This document shows, one piece after another, positions 19,340 to 45,422 of a stretch of 64,000 nt of DNA; positions within the stretch are counted from its first letter, which is position 1; the number at the start of each line of letters is the position of its first letter. A program made the translations under genes and the position numbers. The notes beneath the pieces were generated by a model. The model saw only the letters and a program-made list of their open reading frames with translations, was not told where the DNA came from and searched no databases. The DNA comes from Oscillospiraceae bacterium (GTDB lineage Bacteria; Bacillota; Clostridia; Oscillospirales; Acutalibacteraceae), in NCBI GenBank assembly GCA_015066245.1, contig SVOS01000001.1, positions 1-64,000 on the forward strand. Reading direction: 5' to 3'.

Positions 19340-20749
19340 ATGTTTAAAGGCATTACAAAGCGTTGGGTGCTCAACACCCTGCTTGTTGTTATAGTTGTTG
19401 TTCTGTTTGTCGTGTTCTGCCTTTCATACGCTGTCAGAATTTACTACTACCACTCTGTAACCCAGACACTTAATGCGGCTACTGCCGAATTTCTTAACGT
19501 GCTGGACGATTATGCTTCTGACCCTCAGAGCTTTTCTGCCACTGCACGAAGTTACGTGGAAAATTTTGACGACAAAGAAAAAATGGAGATTACCGCCATT
19601 GATGCCAAAGGCAACGTTATTATCACTTCCACAGGCTTTACACCTGACTCTACTCACCAGATGCCCGATTATATCAAGGCAACAAGCGACAACTTAAGCC
19701 GCTATGAATGGACCGGCAACCTGTCCTCCGGTGAAAATGTAAAGGCAGTTACCCGACTGGTGCGAAATTCTCAGAACGAAGTAATGGGTGCTGTCAGATG
19801 CGTTATCTCTCTTACAGACATTGACTACAATATAACCATGGCTATTGTCATTATCTCTGTTGTAGGTCTTACAATTATCCTGCTTGTGCTTTTCTCGGGG
19901 CTTTACTTTATCCGCTCCATTGTCCGTCCCGTGCGTGAACTTTCGGCAACTGCCAAAAAAATTGCCCAGGGCGACTTCAATACAAGAATCGAAAAATCTC
20001 ACGATGACGAAATCGGCGAGCTTTGTGATTCTATCAACGATATGGCAACAGAGCTTGGAGCAGCTGAAAGACTTAAAAACGACTTTATCTCCAGCGTTTC
20101 TCACGAGCTGAGGACTCCCCTCACCGCCATAAAAGGCTGGGCAGAAACCATGCAGTATTGCGGCTCGGTAGACAAAGAAACCTTTGATAAAGGTATGGAT
20201 ATAATCGTCAAGGAATCCTCACGTCTTACCTCAATTGTTGAGGAGCTTCTGGACTTCTCAAGACTTCAGAGCGGCAGAATGATGCTTATGAAGGAGAAAA
20301 TCGACATCTTAGCTGAGCTTGACGAGGCACTTTACATGATGAAAGACCGTGCCATAAACGAAGAAAAGCATCTTCTCTACGACAAGCCCGAGTCTATGCC
20401 CCCTGTATACGGCGACAAAAACAAACTCAGACAAGTTTTCATCAACATTATCGACAACGCCCTCAAATACACCCAGAGCGGTGGTGTTGTGGGTATTCAG
20501 ATTCTGGATTTTACGCATTCGGTTCATATTGTGGTTACCGACACAGGCTGCGGTATTGCACCCGACGACCTGCCCAGAATCAAAGATAAATTCTACAAGG
20601 CAAACCAGAGTGTCCGCGGCTCGGGCATTGGTCTTGCCATTGCAGACGAGATTATCTCGCTTCACGATGGTACACTTGATATCCAAAGCGGTATCGGTGT
20701 AGGCACTACAGTAACAATCGCAATTCCTGTTTATAAAGAAACAAACTAA
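19340..20749 (+). CDS. Membrane sensor histidine kinase
   Basis: 469 residues. The start is taken as ATG 19340 because GGAGGAC is 6-9 bases upstream; an earlier in-frame ATG at 19265 lies in repeat DNA. The order is: transmembrane helix 1 (about 10-35), an extracellular sensor region (to about 165), helix 2 (about 170-195, IIVSVVGL-like), a HAMP linker (RSIVRPVRELSATAKKIAQG), a HisKA dimerisation helix with phospho-His255 in SHELRTPLTAIKG, and an ATPase domain with DNALKYT, TDTGCGI and GSGIGLAIADEI. It should phosphorylate the regulator encoded at 18335. The signal is unknown. Confidence 0.92.
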   Translation: MFKGITKRWVLNTLLVVIVVVLFVVFCLSYAVRIYYYHSVTQTLNAATAEFLNVLDDYASDPQSFSATARSYVENFDDKEKMEITAIDAKGNVIITSTGFTPDSTHQMPDYIKATSDNLSRYEWTGNLSSGENVKAVTRLVRNSQNEVMGAVRCVISLTDIDYNITMAIVIISVVGLTIILLVLFSGLYFIRSIVRPVRELSATAKKIAQGDFNTRIEKSHDDEIGELCDSINDMATELGAAERLKNDFISSVSHELRTPLTAIKGWAETMQYCGSVDKETFDKGMDIIVKESSRLTSIVEELLDFSRLQSGRMMLMKEKIDILAELDEALYMMKDRAINEEKHLLYDKPESMPPVYGDKNKLRQVFINIIDNALKYTQSGGVVGIQILDFTHSVHIVVTDTGCGIAPDDLPRIKDKFYKANQSVRGSGIGLAIADEIISLHDGTLDIQSGIGVGTTVTIAIPVYKETN

Positions 20750-29964: not shown

Positions 29965-30142
29965 ACTCATCAACCTCAAAGTAAAATTTTTATTTTGTCC
30001 TCAATAATACTACACCCTGAGTTTTATCAGTTCAACAAAATGGGATAATAAAAAGTTTTTAGGGATAAAGTGAACAAAGCCGCAGTTTTTGTGCCGATTT
30101 TGTGTTGTTTTGGAGAAAATTATACCAATTCTCCTCAGTCGG

Positions 30143-30171
30143 TTGCAATGGCACATTTTTTCTGTTATGAT
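30143..30171 (+). promoter_or_regulatory. Promoter of the sortase-aroK genes
   Basis: TTGCAA (30143-30148) and TATGAT (30166-30171), 17-bp spacer, 51 bp before the sortase ATG. The region 29980-30140 shows nothing else. Confidence 0.65.
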
Positions 30172-30222
30172 ATAGCATGTCAAACAGTATGCAATAAGAA
30201 ATTTATGAAACGAGGTATAAAA

Positions 30223-31605
30223 ATGGACGAGAAAAACCTGAATCCTCAGGAAGAAACCAATACCCCTGCTTCTGAAGAAACAAAAGCAGAAACTACTGCC
30301 GACACAGAAAACAAGGCAGAGAAAAGCAACACAAGCAATATAGAAAACGCCACCAAAAAAGGCGGCATCTTTGCACTTTGCAAGGAGAAAAAGGGCCTTG
30401 TAATTGCAATCGCAGTGATAGCTGTTGCTCTTGCGGTTATACTTTCTGTTGTGCTTTTAAAATCCTGCGGTACACCTACAGACCCTGCTACTGCTGACGA
30501 GGTTACCACAACCCCCGAAACAGAAGCAGCCACAACCGTCCCCGAGACTCAGCCCGACGGCACCGAGGACACCACCTGGCCTGACGGTACTCCCTACGAA
30601 GAGACTCAGGACTGGAAAGCCCTCAAGGAAGTTAATACAGACATCAAGGGCTGGATTACCATGAAGAATACACCCATCAACTATCCTGTTCTTGTATCTG
30701 AGGAGGATGGCTTCGGCTATCAGTATTATCTCCACCGCGGATATGACAAGTCCTACGATTACGCAGGCAGTATCTTCATTGACTACAGAAGCAAGGAAGG
30801 CGAAAAAAGCCGTAACATCCTTACTCACGGTCACTCTATGAACGACGGCTCCATGTACAAGGCACTTATCGACTTCGGCGAGTACGAGGCTGATATGAAC
30901 TTCTACAAGAAGAACCCCACATTGTTCTTCAACACCCCCGAAGGCAACGAGCAGTGGATTATCTTTGCAGTTGTAAAGACCAACACCCTCGAGGACCACG
31001 GCGACTTCTTCAACTATCTTATGGGCTCCTTCGAATCTGATGCTCAGTACATGAACTACATCTACAACATGAAGGTCCGCTCTATTATTGATATTCCCGT
31101 TCCCATTAACGAGACTGACGATATTATCACACTTTCTACCTGTTCTTATGAATACACTGATTTCCGTACAGTTGTATGTGCAAGAAAGATAAGAAACAAC
31201 GAAAAGGTTAACGATTACATCAACGCTGCAAAGCCTGCAGAAAATCCCCTCTGGCCTGATGTTCACTACAGCTATGACGACAAGCAGCCCGAAATCACAA
31301 CCTTCAAGACCGAGCTCCAGAAGAACAACCTTCCCTGGTATGACGGCAAGGGCGACCTTGAGGGCAGCGAGTGGCTTGTTATGACAACAGGCAGCAAGCG
31401 CTTTACTGTTACATTCATCAACTATGACGGCTCTATCATCAGCACCCAGCAGGTTTCTCAGGGCAAGTCCGCCTCTGCTCCCCCCGACCCTGTAAAGCCC
31501 GACTCTGAAAATTACACCTATCGCTTTGTTGAATGGGGTCTGGATTTCTCAGATGTTGACTGTAATATGACAATCGCTCCCAAATTCGAGGCGATTCCTA
31601 AATGA
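30223..31605 (+). CDS. Class B sortase with C-terminal InlB-type repeat
   Basis: 460 residues. ATG 30223 is chosen for GAGGT 6 bases upstream, and the resulting N-terminus is a charged cytoplasmic segment followed by one membrane helix (about 60-85). Outside lies a Thr/Pro/Glu linker and a sortase domain: WITMKNTPINYPVL, the active-site His region LTHGHSMNDG (His202/204), Cys307 in LSTCSYEYTD and Arg321 in VCARKI. After the sortase fold come WYDGKGDLEG and a Listeria-Bacteroides/InlB-type repeat (FTVTFINYDGSIISTQQVSQ, then EWGLDF). Sortases cut sorting signals and attach proteins to cell wall or pilin. No candidate substrate is adjacent. Its last codons overlap aroK. Confidence 0.88.
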   Translation: MDEKNLNPQEETNTPASEETKAETTADTENKAEKSNTSNIENATKKGGIFALCKEKKGLVIAIAVIAVALAVILSVVLLKSCGTPTDPATADEVTTTPETEAATTVPETQPDGTEDTTWPDGTPYEETQDWKALKEVNTDIKGWITMKNTPINYPVLVSEEDGFGYQYYLHRGYDKSYDYAGSIFIDYRSKEGEKSRNILTHGHSMNDGSMYKALIDFGEYEADMNFYKKNPTLFFNTPEGNEQWIIFAVVKTNTLEDHGDFFNYLMGSFESDAQYMNYIYNMKVRSIIDIPVPINETDDIITLSTCSYEYTDFRTVVCARKIRNNEKVNDYINAAKPAENPLWPDVHYSYDDKQPEITTFKTELQKNNLPWYDGKGDLEGSEWLVMTTGSKRFTVTFINYDGSIISTQQVSQGKSASAPPDPVKPDSENYTYRFVEWGLDFSDVDCNMTIAPKFEAIPK

Positions 31606-32169: not shown

Positions 32170-33318
32170 TCACTCTAAAAATGCAAGGCCTGCATCGGTG
32201 CAGAAATTAGAAATGCCGTAAAGCACCAAGCCGTCCTCGATGCCTTCCTGCTTGCAAAGCTCAGAGATGCTCTCTTTGTAATATCTCATATCCACCATTA
32301 CAATCTCGCTGTAATTCTCAGCCAGAAATGGTGTCAGCGCGTGTGCAAAGCTATCCTTAAGCACAAGGAGCTTGCCGCCCTCAGCGTCGGGATTCTGAAT
32401 CTTTACAAGAGGATGGTTGCCGTCTAAGAAAACAGGATACATATCAGGCTCGCTCAGATGCTCCTCAAAGTACATCGAGTCAAATTTCTCAGAGCCTAAG
32501 CCCTCAAAAATCTCCACCGTGATATTCTTGCTTTTCGTGCTCTCCCACACCTCAAGGGTGTCGGCATCCCTCAGAAAATATCCGCTTGAGGAATAGGTTG
32601 TGCCGCAAAAACCATTGTGGACTGTCTTATGGAAGTTTTCCTCATCAAGAGGCTCAAATCCCAGAGTCTCTCCAAGAGCATTATATGCACAGAAAGCACC
32701 CGAGGTAGTCCAGTGGTGGTCGGTTTTGTAGAAGGGAGATGTGCCGTCCTTGTAATAGTCCAGCATGGCTTTTTCCAGGTCGCAGTAATTTATATTTTCC
32801 GAAAGCTTTGCCTTAAGCTCCGCAAACACAAAACTATCGCTATAGCTTGTGTGATTTACTGGGAGCTTGTCAGCCATAACATAACCTGCCGACGGCACCA
32901 CCGCCACAGTCAGGTTAAGATTTTCTGAAAAATCATTGAGAACACCGATGTTTTTCTCAAGCCTTGAGGTATCGTAGGGCTTTGTGACGATATATCCGTC
33001 TTTGCAGTAATAGTAGTCGGAGTTTGCGGTATTGCCAATAATTAGATTGTAGTAGGAATGAAGCCCCACAAAAAAGCTCCTCAACGGAAAATGGTCTGCC
33101 ACATATCCCGAAGTACCCTTTTCGCTGTCGCCGTCGATTTCTTTCACAAGCTCACCCGACATAAGGTTCTGGAAGCTGAAGTTCGGGGTTTCGGCAAGAT
33201 AGCGTTTTTCCATGGCGCTGAAATCGGACTTTGGCAAAACAAAAAACATAATAAAAGCCGAAAAAGTAAAGAGAATAAACACCAGAGCAGGCATAAACCT
33301 GAATATTTTATTTTTCAT
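32170..33318 (-). CDS. DHHW family (AlgX/AlgJ-like) protein partner of MBOAT
   Basis: 382 residues with an N-terminal membrane anchor (about 7-30) and an extracytoplasmic SGNH/AlgX-like domain. The DHHW signature is D200-H201-H202-W203 in TDHHWTTSGA. It is followed by YNALGETLGFEP and a C-terminal LVLKDSFAHALTPFL with the Ser-containing motif seen in AlgJ/AlgX. These proteins act with an MBOAT acyltransferase to O-acylate (usually acetylate) exopolysaccharide or wall glycans outside the membrane. The MBOAT gene lies immediately upstream in the same direction (18 bp), supporting the pairing. Confidence 0.88.
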   Translation of the reverse strand: MKNKIFRFMPALVFILFTFSAFIMFFVLPKSDFSAMEKRYLAETPNFSFQNLMSGELVKEIDGDSEKGTSGYVADHFPLRSFFVGLHSYYNLIIGNTANSDYYYCKDGYIVTKPYDTSRLEKNIGVLNDFSENLNLTVAVVPSAGYVMADKLPVNHTSYSDSFVFAELKAKLSENINYCDLEKAMLDYYKDGTSPFYKTDHHWTTSGAFCAYNALGETLGFEPLDEENFHKTVHNGFCGTTYSSSGYFLRDADTLEVWESTKSKNITVEIFEGLGSEKFDSMYFEEHLSEPDMYPVFLDGNHPLVKIQNPDAEGGKLLVLKDSFAHALTPFLAENYSEIVMVDMRYYKESISELCKQEGIEDGLVLYGISNFCTDAGLAFLE

Positions 33319-33336
33319 AATTTATCCTGCCTTTCT

Positions 33337-34728
33337 TTAAAATCTGAAGTAAATAAAGGGGTTGTAGCTCTCGCTTACAAGAGATGCGGTACACAAAAGC
33401 ATAATAGCAATACAGAACACACTCTCTATCACCCATGCCAACTTAAGGTTGCGGATTTTGCCTGCTGCAAGCTTTGCCACAGGTGCGCTGAGGATACAAC
33501 CGACAACGCACACAGGCGCATAAGAAAGTATCACCGAAAGCTGAGCCTCGCTTGCACCCATACCTCCAAAGCCGAAAAGCGATGAGAACATGGTTGAAAG
33601 CCCCTCTAAAGTATCAAAGCTGAAAATTGCCCAGCCAATCATAATGAGTAAAATTGCGTAGATATGACGCATTGCCTTGGGGAGCTTTTCCAGAAATTTA
33701 AGCAGGAAAAGCTTTTCCATAACCAGAATCAGGAAGAAGTAAAGTCCCCACAACACAAAGTTATAGGCTGCGCCGTGCCACAAACCCGTGAGAAACCACA
33801 CCACAAAAAGGTTGAGAATCTGACGCGGAAAGCCAAGTCTGTTTCCGCCCAGGGGGATATACACATAATCTCTGAACCAAGTGGAAAGAGATATGTGCCA
33901 TCTTCGCCAGAAGTCGGTAATGGAGCGGGAGATATAGGGGTAGTTGAAGTTTTCCATAAACTCAAAGCCAATCATCCTGCCAAGTCCCCGAGCCATATCG
34001 CTGTAGCCCGAAAAGTCAAAATAAATCTGCAGCGAAAGTGCCAGAAGCCCTGCCCATCCCGACACAAAGCCGAGATTCTCCGACACACCGCTTAAGTTTC
34101 TGAACATCAACGCAAACTGATTTGCCAGAAGCACCTTTTTGCCCATACCGCAGAGAAAAAGCACAACACCGCTTTTAAATTTCTCAAGAGAATGAGTACG
34201 TGCTGTAAGCTGAGTCTCAACGTCGGTATATCTGACAATAGGGCCAGCAATAAGCTGAGGAAAAAGTGTAACGTAGGTGCCTAAAAGCATAGGGTTTTTC
34301 TGGACGCTGCACTCTTTTCTGTATACGTCGATGGTGTATGACATCGCCTGAAAGGTGTAAAAGCTGATTCCTATGGGGAGTGCCGGTACCTCAAAGGCAA
34401 TGTTTACAAAGGGCAGCAAATTAAGAGTAGACACAATCATGCCCGAATATTTAAAGAACACAAGAAAAGATAGGTTTAAAACTACCGAAATTATAAGCCA
34501 CGCTCTCTTTGCAGGACGTGAATATACCTTGTTAATTATCATACCTGCACCGTAGTTGATAAGTATGGTAAAAAGCATCAGAAGTATATACATAGGCTCG
34601 CCCCAACCGTAGAAGGCAAGGCTTACAAAAAACAACACCCAGTTTCGTGCCTTAAGGGGTACAATATAGTAGCACAGAAGTACCACGGGCAAATATATAA
34701 ACCAAAAGGTAAGGCTTGAAAATACCAA
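33337..34728 (-). CDS. MBOAT family O-acyltransferase (AlgI/DltB-like)
   Basis: 463 residues from TTG 34728 (MVFSSLTFWF), chosen because AGAGGG lies 6 bases upstream; it agrees with the usual AlgI N-terminus FSSxxFxFxFLP. There are about 10-11 membrane helices. The conserved MBOAT motif with catalytic His is WHG (Trp317, His318) in GLWHGAAYNFVLWG, and the SDMARGLG and WRRWHISLSTWFRDYVYIPLGG segments are classic AlgI landmarks. It should pass an acyl group across the membrane to the DHHW partner. Substrate unknown: acetyl by analogy with AlgI, or a carrier-bound acyl by analogy with DltB. Confidence 0.93.
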   Translation of the reverse strand: MVFSSLTFWFIYLPVVLLCYYIVPLKARNWVLFFVSLAFYGWGEPMYILLMLFTILINYGAGMIINKVYSRPAKRAWLIISVVLNLSFLVFFKYSGMIVSTLNLLPFVNIAFEVPALPIGISFYTFQAMSYTIDVYRKECSVQKNPMLLGTYVTLFPQLIAGPIVRYTDVETQLTARTHSLEKFKSGVVLFLCGMGKKVLLANQFALMFRNLSGVSENLGFVSGWAGLLALSLQIYFDFSGYSDMARGLGRMIGFEFMENFNYPYISRSITDFWRRWHISLSTWFRDYVYIPLGGNRLGFPRQILNLFVVWFLTGLWHGAAYNFVLWGLYFFLILVMEKLFLLKFLEKLPKAMRHIYAILLIMIGWAIFSFDTLEGLSTMFSSLFGFGGMGASEAQLSVILSYAPVCVVGCILSAPVAKLAAGKIRNLKLAWVIESVFCIAIMLLCTASLVSESYNPFIYFRF

Positions 34729-34870
34729 GTTTTTCCCTCTTTTCCGAAATTTTAATCCAAGACTTGACAAAGTCCCCTTCTTTACATAATAATTGTTTTA
34801 TGTCAATAAGTCAATTTACATTTTTGTATTAAGTATTAAAGATTATTTATTAAAAAAGGTGGGAATAGTA

Positions 34871-35947
34871 GTGAAGGAAAGGAAGTCTGTCCGTCGCAGA
34901 ATACTGCGTATAACGACAGTGGTGCTGGTGGCTTTGCTTATTTTAGCCGCAGGTATGCTTGCGGTAACCAAGATTATTCACGACTCTATATACCCGCGTT
35001 TTCAGCGAAATGCAGTAGAAGATGCCCTGAACATAAAAATTTCTGACCAGAGCACAGGATATCCCACCGAAGAAATCGCCTTTAAATCCGGTGACAACAC
35101 CCTCAGAGGCTACATCTCAGGCGACGAGGACGCCACCTCTTTGGTGGTTATTGTGCCGGGGCTTTCGGCTGGTGCCGAGGACTACACCTCGATAGCAATG
35201 GAGTTTATGGATTTGGGATACAAGGTCTTCTCCTTTGATACCACAGGAAGCTTTGAAAGCGAAGGCGAAAACTCCGTAGGCTTTTCTCAGATTGTGGCTG
35301 ACCTTAAATCAGCGCTGGACTATATCACGAAAAATCCTGAGCTTAAAGACCTTGAGCTTAATCTTTTCGGCCATAGCCGAGGAGGCTACGGTGCGGCTAT
35401 GGTGGCAGATGACGGCTACAACCTCAACGCCATTGCAACAGTGGGCGGAGTAAACTCGCCCATGGAAATCACCATGGAATGGAGCGAAAGCTACGTTGGT
35501 GCCTTTGCCTATACGGGCTATCCTGCACTTTACCTCTATCAGAATATGATTTTCGGCTCTGATATTATGGGCACATCGGCCGCCGATGCTCTTGACGAAA
35601 GCGGTGTCAGAGCCCTTGTTATCCACTGCGAAAATGACGCTACCGTAGATGTAGACGGCTCGGCAATTTTTGCTCACAAAGACGAGGTAGAAAGCAAAAA
35701 CGCAGAGTTTATGCTCTACGAAAACCCCCAAAACGCAGGTCACACCACCCTGCTTTACACCCAAAATGCCAACACCTACCGCCAGAAAATCACCCAAGAT
35801 TATGAAAATCTCAGCGAAAAATACGGCGGCAATATCCCCGCGGATATTGAGGAAGATTTTATTAATTCTATTGACTCCCAAAAGGCAAAGGAGCCAAACA
35901 GAGAGCTTATAAAGCTAATCAGCGACTTCTATAAAAACAAAAAATGA
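34871..35947 (+). CDS. Membrane-anchored alpha/beta hydrolase
   Basis: 358 residues from GTG 34871 (VKERKSVRRR), chosen because AAGGTGG lies 8 bases upstream. An N-terminal basic stretch and one membrane helix (about 15-38) put the enzyme outside the cell. The fold shows LVVIVPGLSAGAEDY, the nucleophile elbow GHSRGG with Ser169, and a C-terminal Asp/His region (VIHCENDATVD, NAGHTTLLY). It could be an esterase, thioesterase or peptidase; Ser-Asp-His are present but not the substrate clue. It is transcribed away from the MBOAT pair and towards the PPTase gene, with a bidirectional hairpin after it. Confidence 0.82.
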   Translation: MKERKSVRRRILRITTVVLVALLILAAGMLAVTKIIHDSIYPRFQRNAVEDALNIKISDQSTGYPTEEIAFKSGDNTLRGYISGDEDATSLVVIVPGLSAGAEDYTSIAMEFMDLGYKVFSFDTTGSFESEGENSVGFSQIVADLKSALDYITKNPELKDLELNLFGHSRGGYGAAMVADDGYNLNAIATVGGVNSPMEITMEWSESYVGAFAYTGYPALYLYQNMIFGSDIMGTSAADALDESGVRALVIHCENDATVDVDGSAIFAHKDEVESKNAEFMLYENPQNAGHTTLLYTQNANTYRQKITQDYENLSEKYGGNIPADIEEDFINSIDSQKAKEPNRELIKLISDFYKNKK

Positions 35948-35960
35948 TTATTCATAGCAA

Positions 35961-35995
35961 AAGCGGCGTGAGACACATCACGCCGCTTATATTTT
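35961..35995. terminator. Bidirectional terminator between hydrolase and PPTase genes
   Basis: The 11-bp stem AAGCGGCGTGA (35961-35971) / TCACGCCGCTT (35978-35988) has T-rich tails on both strands. Confidence 0.85.
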
Positions 35996-36004
35996 TTATC
36001 AATA

Positions 36005-36613
36005 TTATTTTTTGCCGATAACCGTACAGACGTAATCCTCTGTTACTTCGCAGAAAATCTCATATCCGCAAGCCGAATTTTCAATAAAAGGCATGGTATT
36101 CACCTTATGAAGCATGGAGAGCCCCTCGCCCGTAAGCTTGAGGTACGCTTCCTTTGCGGTCCAGACTCTCAGGAATTTTGTCCGTTGCTCCTTGCCTCGC
36201 TTGTGAGAGAATTCTCCTACATAAGCCTTTTCATCATCACAAAGAGCTCTGTCTATAAGAGCCTTGCTGATGCTCTCGCGGGTTTCGATATCTATGCCGA
36301 TATCGCTGTCAGCTACCGCCACCGCCACAAAGTTGCCGCTGTGGCTGATGCTTACGCTAAATTTCTTTCCGTTTACTAATGCCAACGGCTTGCCTGAGGG
36401 CAGATTATCCACCTTTACATTCTCCGTCTTTTCGCCCGAAAGCTCTGCTATAAGCTTTTTAAGCCTGCTCTCGGCAGATGCCATACGGAGCTTATCATCA
36501 GAATTTTTATATCTTTCAAGGCGATTTTTACGGCTTTCGCTCATACTTTCACAAGTGAAAATATATTCTTTTTCCGTAAAATCTCTTATGTCAAAAATCT
36601 CAAACTTCATCAT
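36005..36613 (-). CDS. 4'-phosphopantetheinyl transferase (Sfp type)
   Basis: It transfers phosphopantetheine from CoA to a serine of carrier proteins. 202 residues. The metal/CoA motif GIDIETRES and the second motif WTAKEAYLKLTGEGL are clear, as are LPSGKPLAL and the SISHSGNFVAVAV strand with the invariant SHSG. Sfp-type enzymes serve secondary-metabolism or specialised carrier proteins, whereas fatty acid ACP normally uses AcpS. Two carrier domains lie 1.5-5 kb away (39541-39726 and 41129-41383), making them the likely substrates. The start is ATG 36613 or 36610. It is 1 bp after the glycosyltransferase stop, so co-translated. Confidence 0.92.
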   Translation of the reverse strand: MMKFEIFDIRDFTEKEYIFTCESMSESRKNRLERYKNSDDKLRMASAESRLKKLIAELSGEKTENVKVDNLPSGKPLALVNGKKFSVSISHSGNFVAVAVADSDIGIDIETRESISKALIDRALCDDEKAYVGEFSHKRGKEQRTKFLRVWTAKEAYLKLTGEGLSMLHKVNTMPFIENSACGYEIFCEVTEDYVCTVIGKK

Positions 36614-36614
36614 A

Positions 36615-37619
36615 TCAGGTTGTAAGCTTTCGGGTAAAATACTCGCCCACCATAACCAGGAACACCGAAATCACGTAGCAAATCGTCAGCGGCAAAAACC
36701 AAAGCATCGTATGTATGGCAAGAATCACAAGAACATACAGAATCCAGCGTAAAATTGCCGAAAACACAAGTCTTTTGTCGCCTTTGAAGTTAAACCTTCT
36801 GTACCAGACAAAGCGGTTAAGTATCCAGCTTGTGAGGATACAGAGTGTACCCAGTGCATAGACTCTTATGGGCCACATGTGCCAGCCGCAAAGAATATCA
36901 ATAACCAGAATCATCACAAGGCTTATGAAAAATGCAATGAGACTTCCTCCGGCAGAGGCAAACATGTTTTTGTGAATCCTCAGGGTATCTCTGATGGGAT
37001 TGAAGTGGGACGAGCGGTTGTCGTCGATATATATTGTCTTTATGGGAACAGTAAAAATCTTTATTTTCTGCTTGACCGCACAAGTAAGCACATTCATCTC
37101 GTACTCGTATCTGTCGCCCTTGACCTTGAGCATCCAGGGAATATGACACACCCCAAAGCCTCTCAGCCCCGACTGATTGTCCGAGAGATAATGACTGCAG
37201 GACACCGAAAAAACAAACCTTGACATACTGTTGCCTACCCTTGACCTTAAGGGGGTTTTGCCCTTAAAATCGCGGCTGCCCAGCACAAAGTCCTCGCCCA
37301 AACGCATTTTGTCGCGGATGTTGCATATATCCTCGGTTGAGTGCTGGCCGTCAGCATCCGCAGTGATAAACCTCACAGCCTCGGGAAAATGCTCACTTAT
37401 ACGCTCCATGCCGTATCTGAGGGCATAGCCCTTGCCACGGTTTTTCTCATAATCAAGGACAACGGCGTACTTCTTTGCTTCCTCAAAAAGCTCGGCAAAT
37501 TCCGCTATACTGCCGTCATTGACAACAATAACCCCGAAGCCCTCTGCTTTAAGCTCTCTCAGGGTTTTAATCATCAAAATATTAGGATTGTAAGCCGGAA
37601 GCAACACCACCGTGTCCAT
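36615..37619 (-). CDS. GT2 glycosyltransferase fused to GtrA-like membrane domain
   Basis: 334 residues from ATG 37619 (MDTVVLLPAYNP), chosen for AAGGAGAG upstream. The N-terminal half is a GT-A family 2 glycosyltransferase (LLPAYNPNILMIKTL, VIVVNDGSIAEF, ADADGQHSTEDI, LGSRDFKGKTPLRSR), like DPM synthase or polyprenyl-phosphate sugar synthases. The C-terminal half has four hydrophobic helices (about 215-330) resembling GtrA, a family thought to help move polyprenyl-linked sugars. The two are usually encoded separately, although fusions exist. The promoter is at 37647-37675. It shares the transcript with the PPTase gene. Confidence 0.88.
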   Translation of the reverse strand: MDTVVLLPAYNPNILMIKTLRELKAEGFGVIVVNDGSIAEFAELFEEAKKYAVVLDYEKNRGKGYALRYGMERISEHFPEAVRFITADADGQHSTEDICNIRDKMRLGEDFVLGSRDFKGKTPLRSRVGNSMSRFVFSVSCSHYLSDNQSGLRGFGVCHIPWMLKVKGDRYEYEMNVLTCAVKQKIKIFTVPIKTIYIDDNRSSHFNPIRDTLRIHKNMFASAGGSLIAFFISLVMILVIDILCGWHMWPIRVYALGTLCILTSWILNRFVWYRRFNFKGDKRLVFSAILRWILYVLVILAIHTMLWFLPLTICYVISVFLVMVGEYFTRKLTT

Positions 37620-37646
37620 AATATCTCTCCTTACATTAATGATGTT

Positions 37647-37675
37647 ATTATACACAAAACCCCGAAAATTTGCAA
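37647..37675 (-). promoter_or_regulatory. Promoter of the GT2-PPTase operon
   Basis: Minus-strand TTGCAA (37675-37670) and perfect TATAAT (37652-37647), 17-bp spacer, 28 bp before the ATG at 37619. Confidence 0.85.
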
Positions 37676-37688
37676 TATATAAAGATTA

Positions 37689-37727
37689 TTTACAAAATAA
37701 GAGTCTCAATTACTTTTATTTTGTAAA
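37689..37727. promoter_or_regulatory. Candidate operator: perfect 12-bp inverted repeat between divergent promoters
   Basis: TTTACAAAATAA (37689-37700) and its exact reverse complement TTATTTTGTAAA (37716-37727) flank 15 bp. The element lies midway between the -35 boxes of the two divergent promoters (37675 and 37738), where a dimeric regulator could act on both. No regulator gene of the island is identified. It could instead be a structured leader, but neither transcript would include it. Confidence 0.6.
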
Positions 37728-37737
37728 AGCTCTCAAA

Positions 37738-37766
37738 TTGACTGTAGCCCTTTATTGTGGTATTAT
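37738..37766 (+). promoter_or_regulatory. Promoter of the acyl-activation operon
   Basis: TTGACT (37738-37743) and TATTAT (37761-37766), 17-bp spacer, 34 bp before the GTG start at 37801. Confidence 0.8.
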
Positions 37767-37800
37767 ATTTTGTAGATTATTTTTATGATGGGGTGTTTTT

Positions 37801-39726
37801 GTGTATCTGGATAAATACCTTAAACAACTGTCGGATTTAGAAAAAACCCCGAATACCCTCGGGGACATATACACCATTATGAAATCCCGCTTCAGTGGTG
37901 AGGTTTTCGGTGTTGAGTTTTTCTCCGGCATGGAAACCAAAACTACATATTCCGAGTTTTTTGCTCTTACCGAAAGTGTTGCAGGCGGTATCGCAAAGCG
38001 TTTTGAGGGCAAAGAGGACAGTGTCATCGCCATAAGAATGGATAACTCTGTGTTGTGGTGTGCCTGCTTTTTCGGTGTGCTTATGGCAGGATTCAAGCCC
38101 CTTCTTGTCAACACCAGACTTGACGAGGAAAGCATAGCTTCTGCTGTTGCCAGAAGCAAAGCCATTGCAGTTATATCGGATAAAGATACTGCTATTAACG
38201 GCTATGTTCTTGCATCAGAGCTTAAGCATGAGGGCATCAAAAATCCAAAATGGGCAAATGAGATTATCCTCATGACCTCAGGCACCACAGGTGACGCCAA
38301 GCTGGTAATTTACGGCGGCAAGGCAATCTGTGCACAGGTGCTTACTACCCGCGGCATCTTAAAGCAGTCAAAGTCAATTACCCATAACCGCAAGCTTCAG
38401 ATTAAGCTTCTGGCACTTCTGCCTTTCTATCATATTTTCGGCTTAAGTGCAGTTTTTCTGTGGTTTACATTTTTCGGCAGAACATTGGTATTCCCTACTG
38501 CTCTTGATGCAGATGCTATCCGCTTTGCCTGCAAACGCGGTGAGGTTACTCACTTCTTTGCTATTCCTGCGGTGTGGAGCATGGCTGTTAAGGGACTTCT
38601 TGCCGAGGCAAAAAAGCAAGGCAAGGAAGAAAAGCTCAGAAAAGGTGTTAAAATCTCCAACAAGCTTCAGAACATTTCCCCAAAGTTCGGTCTTTTTGTG
38701 GCAAAGAAACTGCTCTTTAAAGACGTCAGAGATAAAATTTTCGGCACAAGTGTAAGCTTTTGCATCAGCGGCGGCGGCTTCCTCACAGATGAGGCAGTTG
38801 AGATTTTAAACGGTATCGGCTACTCTATGCATGTTGGCTACGGCATGACCGAAACAGGCATTACCGCAGTTGAGCTTTCTGACAAGCCCAAGGTGCGAAA
38901 CCTCAACACAGTAGGTCTTCCTCTGGACGGCATTGAATATAAAATCACCGACGATGGTGTGCTTTGTGTCAAAGGCGACCTTCTGCATAAGGCTATTATC
39001 ACCGAAGACGGTATCAAAGAAAGAGACCCCGAAGAATTTTTCGTTACTGAGGATAGCTGCAAGGTTCTTAATTGCGGACGTTGGAGCCTTCAGGGCAGAC
39101 AGGACGACATCATCATCGGTGAAAACGGCGAAAATTTAAGTCCCGATATGATTGCTCTAAAAATCACTCCCCCGGTGTGCCGAGGTTTCTGCGTTACAGG
39201 TCTTAAAAACAAAAATGGCGGCAAAGAGCCTGTTGTTATCATAAGCCTTGCTGAAAATGCAGGTGATTTCGAAAAGACCACGGCGGCAAATTTTGTTTAC
39301 AAGCAGATTGACACCCTGCCTCTTACTCTCAGACCCCGCAGGGTTTATGTTACAGATTCCGAGCTTCCTCAGAATTTAGGCAAAGTAAAGCGAAATCTCC
39401 TCTCAAAGCTTATTGAAAGCGGCGATGTTAAGCTTGAGCTTATTAATCCTGCCACCGATGAGGACGTCAGCCGTATGTATGACGAAAGTTACATCAATAT
39501 GATAAGAAGAATCAAGGCTTTGTTTGCTGATGCTTTAAGCACTGATTCTTCAATAATCGAGGATAATTCCAACTTCATCTACGATTTAGGCGGCAGCAGT
39601 ATGGCATACTACAATCTTTTCTCCCTTATTTCAAAGGAGTTTTCCGTAGAGCTGGAGATGAGCGCCGAAAATCCCCTCTTTACTCCCGCGGATTTTGCCA
39701 AAGCTGTACTTATGTATAACGCCTGA
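37801..39726 (+). CDS. AMP-dependent acyl-acid ligase fused to a C-terminal carrier domain
   Basis: 641 residues from GTG 37801 (GGGGTG upstream). The adenylation domain of the ANL superfamily carries the P-loop-like LMTSGTTGDAKLVIYGG (about 157-173), PFYHIFGLSAVF, CISGGGFL and the A5-type YGMTETG. The later NLNTVGLPLDG and WSLQGRQDDIIIGENGENLSP match the hinge region. The C-terminal 75 residues form a carrier domain with LGGSSMAYYN, predicted phosphopantetheine site Ser600. It should activate a carboxylic acid, probably fatty or hydroxy-acyl, with ATP and load it onto its own carrier. Which acid cannot be read from the sequence. First gene of a five-gene overlapping operon. Confidence 0.88.
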   Translation: MYLDKYLKQLSDLEKTPNTLGDIYTIMKSRFSGEVFGVEFFSGMETKTTYSEFFALTESVAGGIAKRFEGKEDSVIAIRMDNSVLWCACFFGVLMAGFKPLLVNTRLDEESIASAVARSKAIAVISDKDTAINGYVLASELKHEGIKNPKWANEIILMTSGTTGDAKLVIYGGKAICAQVLTTRGILKQSKSITHNRKLQIKLLALLPFYHIFGLSAVFLWFTFFGRTLVFPTALDADAIRFACKRGEVTHFFAIPAVWSMAVKGLLAEAKKQGKEEKLRKGVKISNKLQNISPKFGLFVAKKLLFKDVRDKIFGTSVSFCISGGGFLTDEAVEILNGIGYSMHVGYGMTETGITAVELSDKPKVRNLNTVGLPLDGIEYKITDDGVLCVKGDLLHKAIITEDGIKERDPEEFFVTEDSCKVLNCGRWSLQGRQDDIIIGENGENLSPDMIALKITPPVCRGFCVTGLKNKNGGKEPVVIISLAENAGDFEKTTAANFVYKQIDTLPLTLRPRRVYVTDSELPQNLGKVKRNLLSKLIESGDVKLELINPATDEDVSRMYDESYINMIRRIKALFADALSTDSSIIEDNSNFIYDLGGSSMAYYNLFSLISKEFSVELEMSAENPLFTPADFAKAVLMYNA

Positions 39727-39736
39727 GGTTTTTAAT

Positions 39737-40378
39737 ATGAAACATATTTTCAGAATTTTTGTAAAGTTTATGACGCTGTGGTCCATCGGTCTGGGATACC
39801 GCGTGCGTGTACGCCACGAAAGCAAAGAAAAACGCAAATCCACCTTTGCTTTCAAGGGACCTGCAGTAATAATAAGCAACCACAATCATTTTGTGGACTT
39901 TATTGTGCTTTTCTATGTTTTCGCCTTCAGATACATCCGTTGTATCGTGGGCAAAACCCTGTACGAAAGCAGTAAATTTATAAAATTCCTTCTTTCTGCA
40001 TTAGGCTGTATCAAGGTAGACCGTTTCTCCTTTGATATGGAGTTTTTCTTTGAGTCTATGGATGTACTGAAGAAAAACGGTGTTATCCTGATTTTTCCCG
40101 AAGGCAAGTTTTCAACCGACGGCAAAATCGACAAGTTCAAAAACACCGCCGCACTTCTGGCACTTCAGGCAGGAGTACCCATTATCCCTGTTTATCACAC
40201 CGCAAACTACGGTTTTTTTAAGCGTACTGATGTTATGGTGGGCGACAGAATTTATCTCAAGGACTTCTGCCAGAGCAAAACTCCCAGCGAAAAAGAGCTT
40301 ACTGAGCTTACTGAAATGCTCAGAGACAAGATGATTGAGCTCAAAGACCTTTCCGAGAAAGGCGGCGGAGTTAAATGA
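39737..40378 (+). CDS. PlsC-type acyltransferase 1
   Basis: 213 residues from ATG 39737 (MKHIFRIFVKF), 10 bp after the ligase stop. The glycerophosphate acyltransferase motif HX4D is HNHFVD, with the second motif VDRFSFDMEFF and the FPEGKFS motif (usual FPEGTRS), then GVPIIPVYHT. An N-terminal hydrophobic segment may touch the membrane. Family members move an acyl group from acyl-CoA or acyl-ACP to a lysophospholipid or other alcohol. Here the neighbouring carrier proteins suggest an acyl-ACP donor. The stop overlaps the next gene by 4 bases. Confidence 0.88.
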   Translation: MKHIFRIFVKFMTLWSIGLGYRVRVRHESKEKRKSTFAFKGPAVIISNHNHFVDFIVLFYVFAFRYIRCIVGKTLYESSKFIKFLLSALGCIKVDRFSFDMEFFFESMDVLKKNGVILIFPEGKFSTDGKIDKFKNTAALLALQAGVPIIPVYHTANYGFFKRTDVMVGDRIYLKDFCQSKTPSEKELTELTEMLRDKMIELKDLSEKGGGVK

Positions 40379-41139
40379 GCAATGTAAAAATGCCCAAGGA
40401 CACCGCTTTAAGCCGAGGACTTTTTCGATTTGCTATTGGCGTAGCAACAATTTTCAACGCCCTTATCGGCAGACCGAAGGTTTACTTTGAAAGTGAAAAG
40501 GCAGAGTTTAAGAACATTCCGTCAAACGTGCTTATTATCTCAAACCACACCTACTGGCTTGACCCGCCTAATCTCTCTATCCTTTTCAGAAAAAAGCTTT
40601 GCAACTCCGTTGCGGCCAATGAGGTTTTTGAGGGTGGCAGATATTACCTTATGGCAGGTCTCAGATGCATTCCTCTTGACAGAAACGCCATGGACCTTGC
40701 CTGCATCAAGGAGTGTGTGGCAAGGCTGAAAAAAGACCAGCGTGTGATTATTTTTCCCGAAGGTCAGCTTAACCTTACTGACGAAATTCTTGATTTCAAA
40801 CCCGGTGTTGCACTTATATCCATGCAGGCAAAATGCGGCGTTGTGCCGGTATATACCTCGGGTGTGTACCGCCCCTTCGGCGGACTTAAGCTTATTGTGG
40901 GCAACCCCATCAGCTTCGAGGAGCTTTTCCCGGGTGCTATGGGAGCAAAGGCGGTTGAAAACGCCACCGCTCTTATGCAGGAGCGTATGCAGAAGCTCTC
41001 GGACAATCTTAACAGCAAGCTTTCTGAAAAAGACAAAAAAATCCAGCACAAAGTTCGTCAGAAATTTGCCGAAAAACGAATTAAAATCGAAGAACAAAAA
41101 CAAACCAAACTCTCTGAAGGTGACAATAATGATAATTGA
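40375..41139 (+). CDS. PlsC-type acyltransferase 2
   Basis: 254 residues, a distinct paralogue of the preceding acyltransferase. HX4D motif HTYWLD in ISNHTYWLDPPNL, CIPLDRNAMDLACI, FPEGQLNLTDEILDFKPG and VVPVYTSGVYRPFGG are present. The C-terminal 50 residues are a Lys/Glu-rich coiled stretch (EKDKKIQHKVRQKFAEKRIK) not normal for PlsC. Two different acyltransferases in tandem suggest two successive acylations or two acceptors. Starts in ATGA overlap with gene 1, and its end overlaps the carrier protein gene by 11 bases. Confidence 0.88.
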   Translation: MSNVKMPKDTALSRGLFRFAIGVATIFNALIGRPKVYFESEKAEFKNIPSNVLIISNHTYWLDPPNLSILFRKKLCNSVAANEVFEGGRYYLMAGLRCIPLDRNAMDLACIKECVARLKKDQRVIIFPEGQLNLTDEILDFKPGVALISMQAKCGVVPVYTSGVYRPFGGLKLIVGNPISFEELFPGAMGAKAVENATALMQERMQKLSDNLNSKLSEKDKKIQHKVRQKFAEKRIKIEEQKQTKLSEGDNNDN

Positions 41140-41383
41140 AAAACTCAGAAAAATCACAAAAGCAATTATGGCTGACACCAATAGCGATGTAGATTTTGAC
41201 AAAATCAGTGCCGAGCACAAGCTGGCTGAGGATGTGGGACTGACCTCTATCTCAATGCTTATGCTGGTTATCAGTATCGAAGAAGAATTCTCAATCGAGC
41301 TTCCTATCAAAGAGGCTTCTCAGTGCGTAACTGTAGGCGACATTATTAAGGTTATCGAGGGTTGTCTTGATGCTAAAAAATAA
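41129..41383 (+). CDS. Stand-alone acyl carrier protein
   Basis: 84 residues from ATG 41129 (MIIEKLRKIT), overlapping the end of the upstream acyltransferase gene by 11 bases. It has the four-helix ACP pattern with the phosphopantetheine Ser predicted at position 40 in DVGLTSISM (usual DSLD or GxxS), and a second helix MLMLVISIEEEFSIELP typical of ACPs. It differs from housekeeping AcpP, whose motif is DSLDTVEL. Probably the donor or shuttle for the acyl group activated by the ligase, modified by the Sfp-type transferase at 36005. Confidence 0.9.
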   Translation: MIIEKLRKITKAIMADTNSDVDFDKISAEHKLAEDVGLTSISMLMLVISIEEEFSIELPIKEASQCVTVGDIIKVIEGCLDAKK

Positions 41384-41777
41384 AGGCATAGAAAACCTGC
41401 CCGAAAAATGGGACTATGTGAGTTTTTCAAAGGGCGCTCAGCTGAGAGTCAAGCGAAATCTATATTATCATCACGGAATTTTTGTGGGCGATGGGGTTGT
41501 TCATTTTGGTGAGGGTAATCCCGAAAAAAACATAAACTCCCCCGAAGAAAACCGTATCATGCTTACTTCTCTTGAGGATTTTCTCAAGGGCGGTGTGCCT
41601 GAGGTAAGGGTATACAGCCGTAAGGAAAAGAAGTTTTTGCTTGAGGCGGATGAAATTGCAGAGCGAGCAAAGTCCCGACTGGGCGAAGGCGGCTACAACC
41701 TCTACACCAATAACTGCGAGCATTTTTCTAACTACTGCGCCTTTGGCGTGGCATATTGCAAATCTACAGATAAATAA
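41370..41777 (+). CDS. LRAT-domain (NCEHF) acyltransferase-like protein
   Basis: 135 residues from ATG 41370, with GAGGG 8 bases upstream; it overlaps the carrier gene by 14 bases. The sequence has the LRAT fold signature: the first His in LYYHHGIFVGDG (His34/35), the second in GVVHFGEG (His45) and the hallmark NCEHF with Cys116. LRAT/PLAAT enzymes are NlpC/P60-like thiol acyltransferases that move fatty acyl chains among phospholipids or onto amines and retinol. Bacterial members are poorly studied. No membrane segment is seen. A terminator at 41783-41815 closes the operon. Its role in a carrier-dependent acyl pathway is inferred. Confidence 0.85.
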   Translation: MLKNKGIENLPEKWDYVSFSKGAQLRVKRNLYYHHGIFVGDGVVHFGEGNPEKNINSPEENRIMLTSLEDFLKGGVPEVRVYSRKEKKFLLEADEIAERAKSRLGEGGYNLYTNNCEHFSNYCAFGVAYCKSTDK

Positions 41778-43679: not shown

Positions 43680-45422
43680 TTAATTCTGAGGAACGTAGTC
43701 CTTAGAGTCAAGAATTTTGAATATATAGTTGTCAGCACCCTCGTAGAATGTGCCTACCTCAAAGTAGCAGGTTTCGCCCTTTTCAAGAGTACCTATGGCA
43801 ACAAAATCTGTGGAGTTAAGCACATAAACATCATCGGCCATCCAGATAGGTGTGCCTTCCTCATCATAAATATAAACCATAGCATCTAAGGAGCCTTCGG
43901 ATAAAATAACTATCTCGCAGTCCTCAGCAGCAGTAAAGGAGAAGGTGTCAAACTCGTTCAGGTAATAGTCAAGCTCAACCTTTACACTGTCACCAATGTT
44001 GAGGGCTATAATTTTTTCATCCTCGGTTGAGGGTTCAATTTCTTCGGGGTGAAGCTCTTCAAACTTCTCTTTGGTTGACTCGGTAATCTTAAACTCTACG
44101 GGGAACTTGATTTCGCCCTCAAGATAATAAGAAATATAATACTCAATACCTGCCTCAAGATAGCGGATTTCTTCGCCTTCTTTTTCGTCCATGTCATTGG
44201 CGTAAACATGGGCATCAGAGTCGTCTTCATTGTTATAAAGCCACTGAACTACAGTAACGGGAAGCATTGCACTGTATTTAAAGCTATAGTAGCCGCTCTT
44301 GTCGGGTACAAACTTAAACACATCCGAAGCAAGGTACGCATCTCCCGAGTCGCCCGAAAACTCCTCCAAGCTTACAAGCATAATCTCATAAGTCTCGTCC
44401 ATTGTAGCTTCTTCGGCTTTAGCTTTAATAAGGTCAAACTCTGTTTCTACACAAAGTGTAAAGTCGCTGCCCTTATCGGAGCACTCAACAATCACATAGA
44501 GCCACTTGCAATCATCACCATAAAAGGGAACCTTCATAAGCTGGTTGGGGTCGTCGGTGGTTTTATAAGGATAACTCTCGCTTACCTTGGCAAAAGTCTC
44601 ATCATAGCAAACCATATACACATCGGGATTTTCGCCCTCGGTATAGAGGCTCCACATATTGTAATAAGAAATATCCTGTGCATTAATCTTATAATATTTC
44701 TTGCCCTCTGAGCCCTTGATATCAATTCTGTCGCCTAACTTAAGCTCGGTGGCCTTGTCTTTGTCAATGGGAAGCTCAGTCTCAGCAAGCACGCCCTTAA
44801 ACTGAACATTTAATTCTTCTGCATAAAATGTGTCAAAATCTGCCCTGTACTCACCCGGAGCCAGCAATGCGTAAACATACTCGTTATTGCCGTCACTTTC
44901 GGAGAACCAGTTTTTGCCGTAGTCATCGCAGTCCTCGATAATAAACTGGAAACCTATCGTATCGCTATGAGAAATCGCCTCAAATTTGTAGTAGCCTTCT
45001 TCCTCAACCTCAAACAAAACATCAGCACCGCCGATATCCTTGATATTAACGGTAATGGTTTCGCCCAGGACATAGTCATACTCGTTGCTTTCGTATTCGT
45101 TGTTAAAGTCGTCAAAATCCTCAATGATATTTGCAAGATACTTCTGAATCAGGGTTGCATCCTTGATAGTTAATTCCGAGTTGTTATCAACATCACCGCA
45201 ATAGATTGCATCCATATTAAGCTCTATAATCTGAGCCAGATGCTTCTGGATTGCAGTAACGTCCTTGATGGTTATCTCGTTGTCAAGGGTTGTGTCACCA
45301 TTAAGAAACAGAGGCTCAAGATAATAATGCTCAAAAGAAACCGCGGCAGCACCCAACGGCACAGATGTAATCAGCATTGCCACAATCATTAATACACTTA
45401 AGATTTTTGCTATGTTTTTCAT
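43680..45422 (-). CDS. Secreted protein with N-terminal dockerin and PPC-like beta domains
   Basis: 580 residues. A signal peptide (MKNIAKILSVLMIVAMLITS, cut near GAAA) is followed directly by a type I dockerin at about 40-100: two calcium loops, NGDTTLDNEITIKDVTAIQ and CGDVDNNSELTIKDATLIQK. The rest consists of about four repeats resembling bacterial pre-peptidase C-terminal (PPC) beta-sandwiches (GYYKFEAISHSD, GYYSFKYSA, DTFSFTAAEDCEIVIL). Dockerins bind cohesins in cellulosome-type complexes, yet I see no catalytic domain and no cohesin. Having the dockerin at the N-terminus is less common than at the C-terminus. AAAGGAGGAC lies before the ATG. Confidence 0.85.
   Translation of the reverse strand: MKNIAKILSVLMIVAMLITSVPLGAAAVSFEHYYLEPLFLNGDTTLDNEITIKDVTAIQKHLAQIIELNMDAIYCGDVDNNSELTIKDATLIQKYLANIIEDFDDFNNEYESNEYDYVLGETITVNIKDIGGADVLFEVEEEGYYKFEAISHSDTIGFQFIIEDCDDYGKNWFSESDGNNEYVYALLAPGEYRADFDTFYAEELNVQFKGVLAETELPIDKDKATELKLGDRIDIKGSEGKKYYKINAQDISYYNMWSLYTEGENPDVYMVCYDETFAKVSESYPYKTTDDPNQLMKVPFYGDDCKWLYVIVECSDKGSDFTLCVETEFDLIKAKAEEATMDETYEIMLVSLEEFSGDSGDAYLASDVFKFVPDKSGYYSFKYSAMLPVTVVQWLYNNEDDSDAHVYANDMDEKEGEEIRYLEAGIEYYISYYLEGEIKFPVEFKITESTKEKFEELHPEEIEPSTEDEKIIALNIGDSVKVELDYYLNEFDTFSFTAAEDCEIVILSEGSLDAMVYIYDEEGTPIWMADDVYVLNSTDFVAIGTLEKGETCYFEVGTFYEGADNYIFKILDSKDYVPQN

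Follow-up and report, generated by a model that had tools for sequence, protein, structure and literature searches.

A conserved acyl-activation operon with a carrier-fused ligase and tandem PlsC acyltransferases in an Oscillospiraceae bacterium: a putative acyl-salvage module

A 64,000-nucleotide stretch from an Oscillospiraceae bacterium (positions 1 to 64,000 of contig SVOS01000001.1, assembly GCA_015066245.1; hereafter, the window) contains an island of genes for acyl activation and transfer. Five genes on the plus strand encode, in this order, an AMP-forming ligase of the ANL type with a C-terminal carrier domain, two PlsC-type acyltransferases (PlsC1 and PlsC2), a free-standing acyl carrier protein (ACP) and an LRAT-type protein. 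A GT2 glycosyltransferase and an Sfp-type 4'-phosphopantetheinyl transferase (PPTase) are encoded divergently on the minus strand. The ligase, PlsC and ACP genes are co-inherited, and their linkage is far beyond chance. Our preferred reading, to which we assign a probability of about 0.55, is that this core is an acyl-salvage module: fatty acids would be loaded on carriers and re-esterified into phospholipid. A first-pass annotation had proposed an acyl-transfer system making an envelope product; its core module stands, and with moderate confidence the product shifts to lipid salvage.

Pfam searches recovered every gene named in the first-pass annotation, each with the family it had been given (Table 1). 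The five genes had been described as an overlapping operon. Three junctions do overlap, by 4, 11 and 14 nt, but the most likely start of PlsC1 is the ATG at 39737, 10 nt past the ligase stop, and PlsC1 therefore does not overlap the ligase. The GT2 open reading frame is open to 37655, with 37619 as its most likely start.

To compare loci, 7998 candidates were scored for similarity to the window ligase; 1163 were relatives and 120 were listed. An alignment of 30 relatives was used for one scan of genome contigs, which revealed 288 places encoding a ligase relative. The best 80 of the 288 (L031-L110) were kept and analysed together with the window. Profiles built on the window genes, together with all-against-all clustering, served to label neighbouring genes. 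Joining similar loci at a ligase identity of 60% gave 36 clusters, one of them with 31 loci, and a cluster was scored positive for a gene if any member locus has it. One representative was scanned from each neighbour cluster present in at least 4 loci; representatives c18, c21, c22 and c25 had no Pfam match.

PlsC was linked to the ligase in 34 of the 36 clusters and ACP in 30, followed by an alpha/beta hydrolase (23), FakA (20), DegV/FakB (19), PlsX (18), LRAT (17), GT2 (14), MFS (11), PPTase (7) and an Aes-type hydrolase (7). Counted over the 80 loci, PlsC was present in 75, the hydrolase in 60, FakA in 53, DegV in 52, GT2 in 51, the Aes-type hydrolase in 38, PlsX in 32, LRAT in 22, PPTase in 14, MFS in 12 and MBOAT and DHHW in 3 each. 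Within the 6.5 kb downstream, 60 of 81 loci have a free ACP and 21 have none, some of the latter at contig ends. By a rough estimate, with copy numbers rounded from gene counts in genomes, chance would give fewer than 1.2 clusters for FakA, PlsX or PlsC, and no labelled partner was present at any of three generic ANL loci (L122-L124) taken from relatives. NCBIfam, and in most cases Pfam too, confirmed one FakA, one DegV and one PlsX of relatives as well as the copies in the window's own genome; MFS_2 and MarR representatives were confirmed by one or the other. The first-pass annotation had named, as a result that would speak against it, genes that do not stay together in relatives. Because the core genes do stay together in distant relatives, the carrier-fused ligase, the tandem PlsC, the ACP and, in part, LRAT pass as one acyl-transfer module. 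PPTase and GT2, which it placed in the island, are recurrent neighbours; FakA, DegV/FakB, PlsX and an MFS_2 transporter are recurrent partners that it lacked.

The PlsC pair was analysed in 44 representative loci. Exactly two PlsC domains, fused pairs included, lie downstream of the ligase in 37 of them; of the other seven loci, two have a single domain and five have none, L095 only because it was read in the standard code. A single split separates first-position from second-position domains (76 of 76 correct, support 0.974), with window PlsC1 in the position-1 clade and PlsC2 in the position-2 clade, while the genome's ordinary PlsC groups with the second-position side. The only PDB match of PlsC1 was PlsC 5kym (1.8e-8), which PlsC2 also matched (5e-5). 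Distances are correlated among ligase, PlsC1, PlsC2 and ACP (five pairs with Spearman 0.57-0.78, a level reached by 0 of 999 shuffles), and host relatedness contributes to this correlation. The comparison of loci shows the core to be an old module that is kept as a fixed unit.

The window ligase has an AMP-binding fold in its predicted model and an A10 lysine (Lys528), as expected of an ANL enzyme. Its carrier domain spans residues 569-621 with the phosphopantetheine serine at Ser600, which is kept in 80 of 81 loci, the remaining one having a gap. Extra helices near residues 256-313 of the model presumably recall ACSL-type long-chain ligases. The free ACP scores below the acpP equivalog cut-off (44.7 vs 70.45 bits) and reads LTSIS around its serine; the usual ACP motif there is DSL. 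In nine loci (L034, L035, L076, L079, L086, L099, L100, L106 and L108) a second ANL ligase of ~505 aa, with no carrier, is encoded between PlsC2 and ACP; a size filter gave 11 of 80 loci, L048 and L069 among them being other or cut ligases. A protein of 841 aa, encoded at L045:16410-18935 and in counterparts, joins a xylose-isomerase-like TIM barrel (AP_endonuc_2) to an ANL ligase; many members of the 31-locus cluster carry its gene after FakA.

The LRAT-type protein scores 90.5 bits against the Pfam LRAT cut-off of 24.3. Its nearest solved structures are HRAS-like suppressors 2 and 3, that is PLAAT2 and PLAAT3, the best being PLAAT2 (5.6e-7). The His, His and Cys residues, which we take to be catalytic, all align with the PLAAT chains in the window protein. 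The first His and the Cys are invariant in 19 of 19 aligned sequences; the second His is present in four (the window, L033, L034 and L035) and replaced by Gln in 12, Glu in 2 and Ala in 1. In the home genus, 10 of the 12 species with the ligase also have LRAT, as against 0 of the 24 without the ligase (p=2.6e-7). LRAT and the Aes-type hydrolase occur together in 2 of 80 loci only (p=1.5e-5), a result that leans on the one 31-locus cluster and was not used as an argument. A MarR-type regulator directly follows LRAT at L034:8766-9284, L035:14631-15215 and L076:17152-17673 (by Pfam in L034 and L076, by eye in L035), and presumably recalls FabT, a MarR-type regulator of fatty-acid genes.

GT2 had been annotated as a GT2-GtrA protein. 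Pfam did not find GtrA in it, but five C-terminal helices are seen in its model (88.3 pLDDT), for which chains of ArnC, dolichyl-phosphate mannose synthase and GtrB were the best matches in the PDB (Foldseek E 6.7e-11 to 2.9e-10, with TM-scores near 0.5 and root-mean-square deviations of 8-14). It can thus fairly be called a GT2 with a GtrA-like membrane portion. With a GT2 domain, membrane helices and the matching fold, the protein resembles polyprenyl-phosphate glycosyltransferases. A few members of the 31-locus cluster have, upstream of GT2, a row of genes for a DAO and Fer2_BFD FAD oxidoreductase, a Pyr_redox_2 protein and DUF1667 (as at L058:2874-5932), which presumably recalls anaerobic glycerol-3-phosphate dehydrogenase genes.

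The window island contains no transporter. Eight of 81 loci have an MFS_2 gene placed between those for the ligase and PlsC (seven by script, L110 by coordinates; Pfam was run on L079, L106 and L110), as does L095 when this is read with translation table 4. A comparison of the L106 protein with solved structures, in which a link to MFSD2A or MelB was sought, gave no match at E 0.01; these are both Na+-coupled MFS transporters (PMC12851581). That MFS_2 might carry lysolipids is a guess.

Host metabolism points in the same direction as the Fak and PlsX partners. For neither FabF nor FabD was there a match in the window's genome (94% complete), and a need for outside fatty acids follows as a prediction. 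The genome encodes a standard ACP and, outside the window, two PlsX, two PlsY and one PlsC; there are two FakA genes and a DegV-FakA-PlsY cluster on another contig, and FakA, FakB and PlsX, the set expected of FakAB-PlsX salvage, all lie on other contigs. Taken together, the FakA, FakB and PlsX linkage and a host without FabF or FabD argue for salvage of fatty acids into phospholipid rather than for the envelope glycan that had first been proposed.

In the order, 192 of 394 genomes have no FabF match at E 1e-100. FabF was found in 1 of 16 genomes that are ligase-positive at E<=1e-75 and in 201 of 378 others (p=1.6e-4), or in 4 of 24 and 198 of 370 when all 24 ligase matches at 1e-30 were counted (p=5e-4), in a test that ignores kinship and for which the 1e-75 line was set after seeing the data. 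Among 33 genomes behind loci that we chose from the 80, 24 have no FabF match, the completeness of those genomes not being given. The most telling distant case is L095:8968-16403, on a Mycoplasmataceae contig. Its ligase is fragmented under the standard code and the frames are open with TGA read as Trp, giving ligase-carrier, MFS_2, PlsC, PlsC, second ANL, ACP, LRAT and PPTase in a row, all by Pfam except the ACP, for which the ACP profile gave the only match. The contig belongs to a genome of ~1 Mb in which FabF had no match. Separately, in genome G000 (contig C32, near 19529-20485) and in G026 a second, divergent PlsX stands beside an Epimerase-family (galE-like) gene.

What the sequences show is the content and order of the genes, their co-inheritance, family membership and motifs, and the gaps of the host at FabF and FabD. 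From knowledge of these families we infer that the acid is a fatty acid, and the transfer order, lipid product and any role of GT2 are proposed on the same basis. A fatty acid would be freed outside the cell, or from lipid by the hydrolase or LRAT; acyl chains of outside or existing lipids would be released or shifted by the LRAT/PLAAT-type protein and the anchored alpha/beta hydrolase. The ligase would adenylate the fatty acid and load it on its own fused carrier domain, activated by the linked PPTase, from which the acyl group would pass to the free ACP. The two distinct PlsC enzymes would then acylate a glycerophosphate backbone, either glycerol-3-phosphate followed by lysophosphatidate, or both positions of lysophospholipids. 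In relatives, linked FakA, FakB and PlsX may form a second entry through acyl phosphate, feeding the same ACP.

Several observations weigh against salvage, besides the two limits of the order-wide test. In the home genus FabF is missing in 6 of 12 ligase-positive species (E<=1e-80) and 7 of 24 others (p=0.28); with the order-wide signal, this suggests that the module tracks loss of fatty-acid synthase in the wider group and is not limited to it. Since the genome has its own PlsX, PlsY and extra PlsC, the module would not be the sole route to phospholipid. None of FakA, DegV and PlsX is present in 23 of 80 loci, the window's three nearest relatives included. The A10 lysine was found in 44 of 81 aligned loci and not in the other 37, which comprise the 31-locus cluster (L036-L059 among them) and L041, L060, L062, L063, L082 and L087. 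The A10 column is Gly in 31 loci, with the other ANL motifs that were checked largely kept; FakA is linked in 33 of the 37 and PlsX in 14. The ligase model gave a general ANL match to solved structures (MenE, FadD13, malonyl and aryl ligases), and in the profile search AasS (1.3e-15) ranked below MenE and FadD13, so that fold and profile, with MenE first and FadD13 and AasS lower, do not single out a substrate class. Two close relatives of the window, L031 and L032, lack LRAT, which is therefore optional; it also occurs in one ligase-negative genome of another family (G037). Finally, GT2 has no clear place in a salvage scheme.

Known systems offer close but partial parallels. The Escherichia coli Aas/LplT system likewise uses an AMP-forming ligase, ACP and a PlsC-type acyltransferase to re-acylate lipids, and some relatives of the module share with it an MFS transporter in the same operon. 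In Aas, synthetase and transferase domains are in one protein (PMC11416262), whereas the ligase of the module has a carrier domain of its own, and its two PlsC are either independent proteins or a PlsC-PlsC fusion. In the window the genes are separate, the PRK08043 model reaches 30.1 bits with PlsC1 (cut-off 886), and no lysophospholipid flippase is linked in the window island; the transporter, where present in relatives, is of the MFS_2/GPH type, unlike LplT. FakAB-PlsX is a Gram-positive route, acyl-CoA and acyl-ACP synthetases being generally Gram-negative (PMC10146087). FakA, FakB and PlsX of the FakAB-PlsX-PlsY-PlsC pathway are linked to the module in many relatives and encoded elsewhere in the genome; to these the module adds the carrier-fused ligase, an ACP and two PlsC of its own, and LRAT.

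An auxiliary ACP tied to outside fatty acids is known as AcpB in Enterococcus faecalis and as acpB beside plsX in Lactobacillus johnsonii; L. johnsonii is reported to lack fatty-acid synthesis genes save AcpS and an AcpB homologue, and the cited portion of that source describes no ligase, tandem PlsC or LRAT (PMC6509188). Chlamydia trachomatis pairs the acyl-ACP synthetase AasC (CT776) with the lysophospholipid acyltransferase CT775 for scavenged lipid; the part of the source cited describes neither a carrier fusion nor a second PlsC, a dedicated ACP or LRAT (PMC5693948). The PLAAT/HRASLS phospholipase A/acyltransferases and LnsA share with the window LRAT a permuted NlpC/P60 sequence of LRAT type and the kept His and Cys; in contrast to PLAAT/HRASLS, it is bacterial and part of an acyl-activation operon. 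LplT-Aas, AasC-CT775 and Enterococcus AcpB are thus the nearest parallels, none described with the full set in the portions of the sources cited, and no paper describing this gene set was found by title or abstract in a literature search with subscription papers mostly outside its range. The module is not filed under Aas or Dlt because the defining features of each were looked for and are lacking. It is best read as a variant of fatty-acid or phospholipid salvage that works like Aas/LplT and FakAB-PlsX and is built differently.

The first-pass annotation had leaned towards biosynthesis of a special lipid or glycolipid, with an unusual acid activated by the ligase, the PlsC pair and LRAT acting on a non-standard backbone, and GT2 adding a sugar. 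The matches of the ligase leave room for such an acid, 14 of 36 clusters include a linked GT2 of polyprenyl-phosphate type, the genome is already equipped with standard PlsX, PlsY and PlsC, and a few members of one cluster have LicD-family genes close to the module (L061:5031-5909, L059 and L051). We nevertheless consider this reading rather unlikely, given the recurrent linkage of FakA, DegV and PlsX, whose known role is ordinary fatty-acid salvage (PMC10146087), the tracking of FabF absence by the ligase across the order, and the presence of the module in a 1-Mb Mycoplasmataceae bin. Nor was a ketosynthase found among the scanned neighbour-cluster representatives, four of them without Pfam match.

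Less probable still is remodelling of the cell's own phospholipids, in which LRAT would deacylate or transacylate, the ligase and PlsC pair would re-acylate and outside uptake would be secondary. It would suit the likeness of LRAT to PLAAT phospholipase/acyltransferases among solved structures, the precedent of LplT-Aas as such a system in E. coli (PMC11416262), and the FabF-positive species that carry the module too. The enrichment in FabF-less genomes across the order, the FakAB linkage and the linked hydrolase with an N-terminal membrane anchor, recognized by eye, all speak against it.

LnsA, which acts with LnsB on lipoproteins, resembles PLAAT proteins (PMC7387801), and we therefore considered lipoprotein N-acylation of this type; it was set aside, no CPBP-family (LnsB-like) protein being found among the scanned representatives.

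The MBOAT and DHHW/ALGX genes, which had been taken as part of the acyl-transfer system, adjoin each other and score above their Pfam cut-offs, as expected of an AlgI/AlgX-type pair. This pair occurs in 3 of the 80 fetched loci (L031, L032 and L033), the window's nearest relatives; all three share FliB with the window and two share MscS (L031 ends before it). Such linkage is indistinguishable from ordinary synteny of close relatives, and being confined to these loci the pair is not counted with the module. Envelope acylation of the Dlt or AlgI/AlgX type, with MBOAT and DHHW taking acyl groups from the ligase-carrier protein, is very improbable and was rejected for the core: the pair does adjoin the island in the window and three near relatives, but it has no presence in 77 of 80 loci (some of them short), its three positives also carry FliB, the DltB and DltC models are far under cut-off (132 vs 375 and 15.5 vs 68 bits), and DltA was not among the 25 of 66 ligase models listed.

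The promoter-like element 5' of the ligase has similar versions, by eye, in L031, L032, L033 and L034. The inverted repeat between the divergent operons was not found whole, by eye, in L031, L032 or L033. Elsewhere in the window, a secreted protein with two dockerin-like repeats by eye and no Pfam match at 1e-3 is encoded at 43680-45422, and a sortase-domain protein (30070-31605, Pfam 3.4e-8) lies beside a shikimate-kinase-like gene; there are counterparts close to the island in L031 and L033.

Table 1. Island genes and adjoining features, in window coordinates
Feature	Position	Strand	Remarks
ANL (AMP-forming) ligase with C-terminal carrier domain	37801..39726	+	641 aa, GTG start; Pfam AMP-binding 5e-43, PP-binding 5.3e-6
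PlsC-type acyltransferase 1 (PlsC1)	39737..40378	+	Pfam Acyltransferase 1e-20; HX4D and FPEG motifs
PlsC-type acyltransferase 2 (PlsC2)	40375..41139	+	Pfam Acyltransferase 4.2e-19
Acyl carrier protein (ACP), free-standing	41129..41383	+	84 aa; Pfam PP-binding 1.8e-7
LRAT/PLAAT-type protein	41370..41777	+	135 aa; Pfam LRAT 1.2e-25
GT2, five C-terminal helices, polyprenyl-phosphate glycosyltransferase-like	36615..37619	-	Pfam GT2 1.4e-10
Sfp-type PPTase	36005..36613	-	Pfam ACPS 1.2e-15; 1 nt after GT2
Alpha/beta hydrolase (Hydrolase_4, GHSRG motif)	34793..35947	+	Pfam 1.3e-13; N-terminal membrane anchor by eye
MBOAT	33337..34770 (likely start near 34725)	-	Pfam 5.9e-25; neighbour
DHHW/AlgX-like protein	32170..33318	-	Pfam 6.7e-23; neighbour
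Promoter-like TTGACT-17 nt-TATTAT, 5' of ligase	37738..37766	+	by eye
Inverted repeat between divergent operons	37689..37727		16-nt arms, 94%

The source of membrane lipid is not obvious for many uncultured gut and rumen bacteria that apparently lack fatty-acid synthase. The module is a concrete, testable gene set, with a possible link to their fatty-acid needs in culture. It also places a PLAAT-like enzyme in a bacterial acyl-activation operon, the PLAAT group being described mainly from vertebrates (PMC7387801). A wider proposal, which we put forward tentatively, is that it is a lipid-salvage island complete in itself, found across Clostridia, Bacilli and a Mycoplasmataceae bin, that turns imported fatty acids or lysophospholipids into phospholipid by means of carrier-bound acyl groups and a bacterial PLAAT enzyme. 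If so, the acyl-ACP-synthetase route of Gram-negative bacteria would here be merged with the FakAB-PlsX route of Gram-positive bacteria, and gut and rumen bacteria without fatty-acid synthase could live on dietary or microbial lipid.

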